This document shows, one piece after another, positions 16,150 through 50,504 of a stretch of DNA of 64,000 nt (position 1 is the stretch's first letter; the number at the start of each line of letters is the position of its first letter). Position numbers and translations under genes: made by a program. The notes beneath the pieces are model-generated. The model did no database searches and was not told where the DNA came from. It saw nothing but the letters and a program-made list of their open reading frames with translations. Where the stretch lies: contig NZ_JACJMB010000004.1 in NCBI RefSeq assembly GCF_016902615.1, positions 1-64,000 on the forward strand. Direction: 5' to 3'. This stretch comes from Collinsella tanakaei. Its GTDB lineage: Bacteria > Actinomycetota > Coriobacteriia > Coriobacteriales > Coriobacteriaceae.

Positions 16150-16227
16150 AACGGCGCCATATCACACATCGGGTCTTGCGGCGGGGCCAAGTCCGTCCTC
16201 GCCATGACAAGAAAGGAAGAGAAGACC

Positions 16228-16479
16228 ATGAAGGTATCCGAGGTTTCCCAGAACCAGGCCGATAACCTGGTGAGCATGATCGATGCGTATGCTGAGAAGG
16301 GCGGCCATCATCTGAACGTCAACGTCTTCAACCGCGATACGCTGCTCGATGCCCAGGCGCATCCCGAGAAGTACCCGCAGCTGACGGTTCGCGTGTCCGG
16401 TTATGCGGTGAACTTCCATAACCTGACGAAGGAGCAGCAGGACGAGGTGATCTCGCGCACCTTCCATGAGGGCATGTAG
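16228..16479 (+). CDS. separately encoded glycyl-radical domain of pyruvate formate-lyase
   Basis: 83-aa protein corresponding to the C-terminal end of Pfl[39 protein letters not shown] and [14 protein letters not shown] match the E. coli PflB end almost residue for residue. Gly58 in RVSGY is the radical site. The start at 16228 has AAGGAAGA upstream; the in-frame ATG at 16204 is less likely. It lies 78 bases after the main subunit. E. coli YfiD/GrcA is a related spare part that repairs cleaved PFL but carries an extra N-terminal extension (127 aa in all). Here the main gene has no radical domain of its own, so this piece should be an essential subunit. The activase gene lies downstream. Confidence 0.93.
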
Positions 16480-16499
16480 ACGCGCTTGATCGTGGGCGG

Positions 16500-16572
16500 C
16501 CCCCGGGTCTTCACGTGCGCACGTCCTCGCGCCTGCGGCGCTGCGGAAAGTGCGCACGTGAAGACCCGGGGG
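16500..16572. repeat. 73-bp palindromic element
   Basis: Perfect 23-bp inverted arms: CCCCCGGG at the outer left end (16500) running to GTGCGCAC (16522), mirrored at 16550-16572, around a 27-base loop that itself contains GC-rich repeats. It starts 20 bases after the glycyl-radical gene. No T-run follows, so it is not a standard terminator. It could stabilise the transcript end or be a REP-like element. Confidence 0.75.
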
Positions 16573-29241: not shown

Positions 29242-29490
29242 ATGATTAAGTTTCAGCATCTTATCGAAGCCGAAGAGGGTCTGCACGCCCGTCCCGTCGC
29301 GCTGGTCGCCTACACGCTGACCAAGTGCGCGAGCGATGTCCAGATCTCGTTTAACGGCAAGACCGCATCGGGTCGCGACCTGATGGAGATGCTGACGCTT
29401 GACGCCAACAAGGGCGATCTCATCGACATCACCATCGTGGGCGGCAACGAGGAGCAGACCAAGGAGGAGCTGCTCAAGGTGCTTCCGTAA
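29242..29490 (+). CDS. ptsH: HPr phosphocarrier protein (copy 2)
   Basis: 82-aa HPr with His15 in GLHARPVALVA and a near-standard body (ASDVQISFNGKTASGRDLMEMLTLDANKGDLIDITI). As in copy 1, position 46 is Asp, not Ser. CAGGAGG is just before the ATG, and TATAGT at 29183-29188 is a probable -10 box, so it likely has its own promoter within the 250-base gap after copy 1. Codon bias (GGT, CGT, GTC) suggests high expression, fitting the main HPr. A strong terminator follows. Enzyme I (ptsI) is not adjacent, unlike in most ptsHI operons. Confidence 0.93.
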   Translation: MIKFQHLIEAEEGLHARPVALVAYTLTKCASDVQISFNGKTASGRDLMEMLTLDANKGDLIDITIVGGNEEQTKEELLKVLP

Positions 29491-29556: not shown

Positions 29557-29668
29557 TCATGTTGCCGCCGTGCGCGCTCCCGTTCGCGCTGCGCGGTCGA
29601 TTTTGCGTGTCGCCGTCGGCTCGGAGACCGGTTCCGGCTCTCAAACCCTGCTCCGGACACGAAGGGTG

Positions 29669-29805
29669 CCCACTTTCAGTACTTTTTTCGGGCTGTGCCG
29701 GGAAGACTCGCCGCTGGCGTCGTTTCCCGTCATCATTCTCCCAGTTGAGCACTTTATCAAAATAAAGCGTACGTTTGGTCGCGCTCAACATGTACTGAAA
29801 GTGGG
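29669..29805. repeat. palindromic dispersed element, copy A
   Basis: Outer arms of 14 bp, CCCACTTTCAGTAC (29669-29682) and its reverse complement at 29792-29805. An inner stem GTTGAGC (29744-29750)/GCTCAAC (29783-29789) lies within. Outside the stem the left arm is followed by CTTTTTTCGGGCT. The element at 50265-50417 has the same left core (CCACTTTCAGTAC then A-T-rich then GCGGGCT) and the same mirrored right end, so the two belong to one family. No coding capacity. The remaining bases from 29557 to 29963 hold nothing else recognised. Confidence 0.75.
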
Positions 29806-29963
29806 GGGTCCTCGTTTTCGGAAGGCCGCAATGCGACGATTGGGCGCATCCGGAGCGGCTTCGGTGAGCACCTGGCGGCCATCTTGCCTCGAGCGTGGAA
29901 TCCGCGGCCCGGCGTTTCCCGGGCCGGCTTGTCCTATCGGGTCAGATTGGTTACGCCTTGTCG

Positions 29964-30034: not shown

Positions 30035-30346
30035 ATGGCACTCACCGAAACCGATGTGCGGGGCATCGCCGACTACGCCCGCATCGCCCTGGAGGGCGAT
30101 GAGCTCGCGGAGATGACCTCCTACCTCAACGACGCCGTCGACATGCTCGCGCCGGTGCTCGACTACGACCTGCCCGACGTGGAGCCCACGTTCCATCCGA
30201 TCGGCGACCTTGCGAACGTCATGCGCGAGGACGAGGAGCTGGGTCAGCGCGATCTGCCGCTCGAGGTTGCCCTCGAGAACGCAGGCAGCACGCGCGACCG
30301 GTATTTCCGCGTGCCCTCGATTCTGGGAGAGGCGGGTGATCGCTGA
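30035..30346 (+). CDS. gatC: Asp-tRNA(Asn)/Glu-tRNA(Gln) amidotransferase subunit C
   Basis: 103-aa GatC, the small clamp subunit of the GatCAB transamidosome that makes Gln-tRNA(Gln) or Asn-tRNA(Asn). It has the family pattern: helical N-terminus (IADYARIALEGDELAEMTSYLNDAVDML), a DVEPTFHPI segment and a MREDE motif close to the end, followed by RDRYFRVPSILGE. GGAAGGAG lies before the ATG at 30035. The stop overlaps the gatA start (TGATG). Confidence 0.93.
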   Translation: MALTETDVRGIADYARIALEGDELAEMTSYLNDAVDMLAPVLDYDLPDVEPTFHPIGDLANVMREDEELGQRDLPLEVALENAGSTRDRYFRVPSILGEAGDR

Positions 30347-50062: not shown

Positions 50063-50264
50063 GATGTGTCCCCTTTGGCTGCACATGTTACGGCGTGGGG
50101 CATCATACACCGCGCGCGTGGGGGAACTGCGTGCGCCGGGAGGGCGAAACGCGTTGTTCACGGCATGACGGCGGCGGTTGTCGGGCGCGCGGCGCGCCTG
50201 ATCGTCCGGTTCGGCAGAAGACACTGGCCCTTATGTCCGTTTGGTACCCACGTCACATCGAGGA

Positions 50265-50417
50265 GGTGCCACTTTCAGTACATTTTTTGCGGGCTCATCT
50301 GAAGAGCGGATTTTACATGCATAAAAAATATAAGAAACCGCAGGAAAATGATAAATTGCTGCATAAAATTGTTCCGGCAGCGAAGGTGGCTCCGAGAAAG
50401 GTACTGAAAGGGGCACC
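50265..50417. repeat. palindromic dispersed element, copy B
   Basis: Arms of 17 bp with one mismatch: GGTGCCACTTTCAGTAC (50265-50281) and GTACTGAAAGGGGCACC (50401-50417). The interior is A/T-rich (ATTTTTTGCGGGCT at the left, then ATAAAAAATATAAGAAA). The left 13 bases CCACTTTCAGTAC and the following T-run plus CGGGCT match the element at 29669, so these are members of one family. It lies between metF and gltD; the rest of that 440-base gap has no gene. Confidence 0.75.
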
Positions 50418-50504
50418 TTGTCGTCCGACAAGGTCGCAATCGTGGCGAAACGGCGGCGCGCCCGCGCGCTCGGCGACAGTGCCGAACGTGCGGGCGCGCA
50501 CAAT

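Follow-up and report, generated by a model that had tools for sequence, protein, structure and literature searches.

Small intergenic repeats of bacteria are usually viewed as being held by single-stranded hairpins. The mark of REP sequences and REPINs is that each end is a hairpin of 20–40 nt with a GTAG or CGTC tag (PMC3116915). The elements analysed here resemble REPINs (Bertels and Rainey 2011, PMC3116915) in having two inverted conserved ends and a less conserved spacer with favoured lengths, and they are also extragenic, present in many copies per genome, provided with lineage-specific ends and lacking an autonomous copy. In contrast to REPINs, these elements lack a REP hairpin at their ends, which are longer (18–30 bp) and do not flank a RAYT gene; the spacers of family F2 are non-palindromic, and the lengths fall on a 10.5-bp ladder.

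The TIR repeat families of TIRYT genes (TIRtrons, PMC3733652) are similar to these elements as dispersed inverted-repeat dimers that are unrelated to GTAG REPs and occur in a genome with a Y1 gene. However, the repeat around the present Y1 gene is a different one (TGTCCTCATNGGGGACGGG...), and no end of family F1 is nearby. Correia elements (NEMIS) of Neisseria, a MITE whose internal protein site binds IHF, share the size class, inverted ends of about 26 bp, a conserved internal site and the intergenic position (PMC10969869). Unlike Correia elements, the present ones show no target duplication and have no parent insertion sequence, and congeneric species have the core, but not the ends, in common. 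Classical MITEs (PMC10969869) are likewise short, non-coding and dispersed, with inverted ends and empty sites, but here the interiors are near-random, the ends are near-identical and conserved in place, and there is no parent element. No description of these elements in Collinsella or Coriobacteria was found in the open-access literature searched. The repeat analysed here is a member of a class of paired-end elements that extends across the genus and was not encountered in this literature.

Two inverted-repeat elements in the window

The window is the 64-kb stretch of Collinsella tanakaei DNA that was analysed, and it contains two genuine inverted-repeat elements, copies A and B. Element A (29659–29815, unstranded) belongs to family F1 and to its short class, which has a different centre. 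The invariant part of its left end is CCACTTTCAGTACTTTTTT (29670–29688, +), the 13-mer CCACTTTCAGTAC being perfect at 29670–29682 (+), and its right end is CCACTTTCAGTAC again, also perfect (29792–29804, −). The short-class centre CCCAGTTGAGCACTTTATCAAAATAAAGCGTAC (29740–29772, +) is common to four copies (L004, L013, L021 and L034). The earlier note had described copy A as an element of 137 bp; the element is real, and the inverted pair measures 135 bp (29670–29804) from the outer edge of one inner 13-mer to that of the other, or about 157 bp (29659–29815) with the outer arms. As the note had also stated, copy A lies in an intergenic gap, between an HPr-like gene (29242–29490) and gatC (30035–30346).

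Element B (50259–50423, unstranded), located between metF and gltD, is of the long class of F1 and, measured between the 13-mers in the same way, is 145 bp long (50269–50413). CCACTTTCAGTAC is perfect at its left end (50269–50281, +), and the right end CCCCTTTCAGTAC (50401–50413, −) has one mismatch to it, which bears out the mirrored end that had been reported to recur 20.6 kb away. Element B also carries CCTGCGGTTTCTT (50332–50344, −), a variant of the genus-wide core WACCTGCGGTTTTNT. A motif followed by a T-run and CGGGCT had been suggested as the search pattern for this family; the T-run after the core is conserved and CGGGCT is not.

The arms are 36 nt with 75% complementarity in copy A and 27 nt with 85% complementarity in copy B. 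Strand folding was better than that of dinucleotide shuffles (z = −4.7 for the + strand and −5.6 for the − strand), and 0 of 200 shuffles folded equally well. No terminator was predicted within element A or element B. When the window and 18 element loci were searched, no Rfam match other than tmRNA and tRNA was obtained.

Family F1 is dispersed within one species

A whole-genome search found 21 complete F1 end pairs of 125–147 bp in this genome, plus some degenerate ends. With at most one mismatch, the 13-mer CCACTTTCAGTAC gave 38 matches genome-wide versus 2 for the reversed control, and the longer end pattern with at most three mismatches gave 41 ends versus 0. Unpaired end matches were contig ends, degenerate copies (C15) or a chance match within a coding gene (C21). 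The end consensus AACGAGGAGGGCCYACTTTCAGTACTTTTTT is near-invariant, with the outermost 10 bases in few alternative forms; unlike the ends, the interiors have diverged. The long class (145–147 bp) has the centre TACCTGCGGTTTTNTTG, and the short class (135 bp), which includes copy A, has another centre. F1 elements are therefore MITE-like in being short and non-coding, with terminal inverted repeats and many dispersed copies.

Paired F1 ends were absent from all 42 congeners searched, nine of which were additionally searched for single F1 ends with 3 mismatches. In the GTDB contig collection, the 18-mer gave 11 scattered matches in unrelated organisms versus 7–8 expected by chance, and the IMG/VR search for the F1 end gave chance-level matches only, the viral match having no paired end. 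Because 21 pairs are present here and none in 42 congeners, the ends can only have spread by copying within a single genome. The spacer of copy A is 544 bp here versus 133–211 bp in G020, G014 and G037. For six more copies (L004, L005, L009, L020, L021 and L034), the spacer of at least one close relative is no longer than the element-free length or exceeds it by only about 14 bp. A base-perfect clean empty site was not found among the element-free orthologous spacers, because the flanks have diverged by 15–25%. The 21 pairs, their absence from the congeners and the element-free orthologous spacers together uphold the earlier reading of a dispersed, non-coding, non-autonomous element; the contrary case that it had named, two copies only and no empty sites, is not what these genomes contain.

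Other sequences occupy some of these spacers. In one convergent spacer that bears an element elsewhere (L263–L269), seven aligned congeners have a small symmetrical terminator, GTGGGACAAAA...TTTTTTGTCCCAC. In G014, spacers that contain F1 here, namely the gltD-metF spacer and one at C7:140998, hold arrays of TGCAAATCGGGGACGTACCTGCC in alternating orientation (L305 and L306).

All 21 F1 pairs are intergenic according to a simple gene caller. The 20 classified copies were 9 convergent, 9 tandem and 2 divergent (5, 18 and 5 for the spacers of the window), so that F1 copies are mildly enriched at gene 3' ends. The 9 copies between convergent genes would suit a role at the 3' ends of genes, as bidirectional terminators or RNA hairpins, and so would the good folding of the strand and the presence, in congeners, of a small bidirectional terminator in a spacer that bears an element in relatives. 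This explanation is nevertheless highly unlikely, because no terminator is predicted inside either window element, and a stem needs neither the same sequence at 21 loci nor a 10.5-bp step. Genes next to F1 copies showed no common theme by eye, and no recurrent recombinase was seen by eye among the neighbouring proteins listed. The lack of a theme also speaks against fixed host regulatory sites, that is, two operators looped by a DNA-binding protein without present mobility. Such sites are a distinctly unlikely explanation, since point mutation cannot produce 21 copies in one species when its relatives have none.

A genus-wide core lies between clade-specific ends

The core WACCTGCGGTTTTNT was found in 34 of the 43 genomes of the genus, and the reversed control gave zero matches. 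Among the fetched loci, 74 of 86 core matches lay within an inverted-repeat element. In the controls, this was the case for 1 of 71 random positions and for 0 of 110 chance core matches in viral contigs, around which no inverted repeats were found. About 10 end types were recognized, each limited to one clade as far as tested. The ends are near-identical inside one genome and wholly different between clades, and such a wholesale change of the end sequence is a further point against fixed operators. The ends change wholesale between sister species with the core retained, which opens the questions of what protein sets the ends and for what reason hosts retain the copies.

Some spacers are filled in more than one clade. 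The copy A spacer of G036, G040 and G041 holds another element with the ends GGACAATTTGTTCAGATATGAAGGTT, and about 12–15 such elements are present per genome. Both window spacers are also filled in F2 genomes, and the copy B spacer of G020 contains an element with a variant F2 end. Sharing of two spacers out of 21 does not clearly exceed chance, and we therefore do not conclude from these cases that ends were replaced at fixed loci. A suggestive hint of replacement is given by the L237 locus, which has F3 ends in G021 and G012 and F4 ends in G034. Elements in the same spacer of different species could reflect ancestry instead of fresh insertion.

Several other arrangements were observed. Core copies outside F1 ends are present in the C. 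tanakaei genome at L317 (G000:C16:22890) and L066 (G000:C1:157563), the latter between TTTGGTATC/GATACCAAA-like ends. In G036:C22, two F2 elements (L189 and L195) are 1.4 kb apart, and G041 has a single corresponding element (L173), flanked on the left like the first of these and on the right like the second, as though recombination had removed the DNA between two F2 copies. A further dispersed palindrome, CTATAAGTTGCGGTGAAATACGG...CCGTATTCCACCGCAACTT, lies in the left flank of L259 (query 537–610) and is present in many copies within the tight clade.

Element lengths fall on a ladder of about 10.5 bp

The spacing of ends on the helix is important for short transposons, as in the work on IS50. 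F2 lengths cluster at 159, 169, 179.5, 189 and 200.4 bp, with a best period of 10.45 bp (Rayleigh R = 0.93, 41 elements). F1 lengths cluster at 125.5, 135.2 and 145.8 bp, with a best period of 10.5 bp (R = 0.86, 21 elements), although the F1 ladder has only three rungs with one class dominant, and F2 is therefore the stronger case. Periods of 8–14 bp were scanned, and none of 400 random rung placements fitted as well. In 32 non-redundant F2 elements, the ends are 96% identical and the interiors 36% identical versus 28% expected by chance; F2 lengths deviate from the rungs by no more than about 1 bp although the interiors cannot be aligned. The F2 elements in the gltD-metF spacer of G036 and G040 measure 169 and 180 bp, and the difference of 11 bp is one turn. 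F3 elements are 127–128 bp.

We favour, with moderate confidence, mobile elements that are non-autonomous and have their two ends bridged, on double-stranded DNA, by a putative trans-acting protein. A short intergenic element of this kind would be bound at its two inverted ends by a sequence-specific protein supplied in trans, and the protein would bridge both ends across the intervening double-stranded DNA. In a loop of just 100–200 bp, the twist of DNA would require the ends to be on the same helical face, and this would produce the 10.5-bp ladder. A bending protein, for example, would use the conserved central motif as a third site, and the bridging protein may be the same as the one that moves the element. 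The ladder may thus be read, from sequence alone, as a natural record of two ends repeatedly joined on the double helix. It is also compatible with a repressor loop, as would be formed at fixed regulatory sites.

Ends and core change little after insertion

Four orthologous loci (26 sequences, with 45-bp flanks) were compared. Pairwise divergence was 0.053 for the ends, 0.144 for the interior and 0.167 for the flanks, and it was 0.028 for the core, which is favoured in the reference copy only, as the four loci were located via the core. The ends and the core are therefore 3–6 times less diverged than the interior or the flanks. For variable sites in ends versus flanks, p = 3e-14, which is a guide value since columns are not independent across the tree. 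These results indicate that the ends and the core were kept in place after insertion. Changes in the ends were all one-sided: no compensatory change was found, with 0 two-sided changes to a standard pair, which again argues against terminator or RNA stems.

The interior had a single orientation throughout, with no inverted interior among the orthologous elements of the four loci (26 sequences). Invertons, switches that a recombinase would flip by acting at the inverted ends, had seemed conceivable from short inverted repeats about 100–170 bp apart, helically phased, with many sites sharing one end sequence. The constant orientation has already weakened this explanation, and a promoter switch would be of little use to the nearly half of the copies that have convergent genes on either side, so that invertons are improbable in the extreme. 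In-place conservation of ends and core and the retained orientation would both fit looped host operators, and conservation of the ends in place is not expected for a purely selfish element. The latter point counts against mobile elements with bridged ends. The host may now use the inserted copies. A wider interpretation, which we hold only tentatively, is a genus-wide class of mobile DNA with a shared central motif and clade-specific, interchangeable ends on one helical face. The end-binding protein of each lineage would differ in specificity, and hosts would keep the inserted copies as paired-end DNA loops that serve them, for example as a boundary between adjacent transcription units.

Mobility hallmarks and the Y1 transposase gene

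No convincing target-site duplication was found in F1, F2 or F3, direct repeats being no better than chance at any offset or length. The search for an autonomous copy by long-range end pairs gave none in the assembly, which is fragmented into 92 contigs: end matches all pair at element length or lie at contig ends or in degenerate copies, and none flanks a gene. A partner protein for the ends was likewise not found, and this weighs against mobile elements with bridged ends, as do the missing autonomous copy, target duplication and perfectly clean empty site. When the seven end consensuses were examined for a REP-type hairpin, they folded no better than shuffles, while the control, the repeat that flanks the Y1 gene, does fold. 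The label MITE or REP given in the earlier note therefore holds for a short, dispersed element with filled and empty sites. It does not extend to a transposase or autonomous copy with these ends, to target duplication or to a REP hairpin, and the sole REP-type transposase gene of the genome is flanked by a different repeat. The genus-wide core, the clade-specific ends, the helical ladder and the conservation in place go beyond this label and were not visible to the author of the note.

This single Y1 gene (G000:C36; L325:1150-2290, around 16226-16561) has a below-cut-off match to the NCBI model of REP-associated transposases. It is flanked by the inverted pair TGTCCTCATNGGGGACGGG...TTTGGTGCCAC and not by F1, and no F-type ends were found within about 1.5 kb of the fetched Y1 loci. 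As its flanking repeat is a different family, the Y1 transposase was rejected as the partner of these elements. The Y1 gene with its flanking repeat looks like a separate REP/TIR system, and such systems therefore coexist with the class and do not explain it.

Movement of REPINs or TIR dimers as single-stranded DNA by a Y1 (RAYT or TIRYT) transposase would account for paired inverted ends, variable spacers, extragenic positions, the lack of target duplication, vertical persistence and lineage-specific ends (PMC3116915, PMC3733652). A Y1 protein is encoded in 9 of the 10 genomes tested, and the copy in this genome matches the REP-associated model, below the cut-off. We still consider this explanation unlikely, because the ends do not fold as REP hairpins, the Y1 gene and the fetched Y1 loci are without these ends, and G025 has core-bearing elements yet no Y1 gene. 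A double-helix ladder is also unexpected from a single-stranded intermediate, and spacer palindromy, which is present in F3 and weak in F1, is absent from F2. As a separate observation, the Y1-flanking repeat also adjoins element L005.
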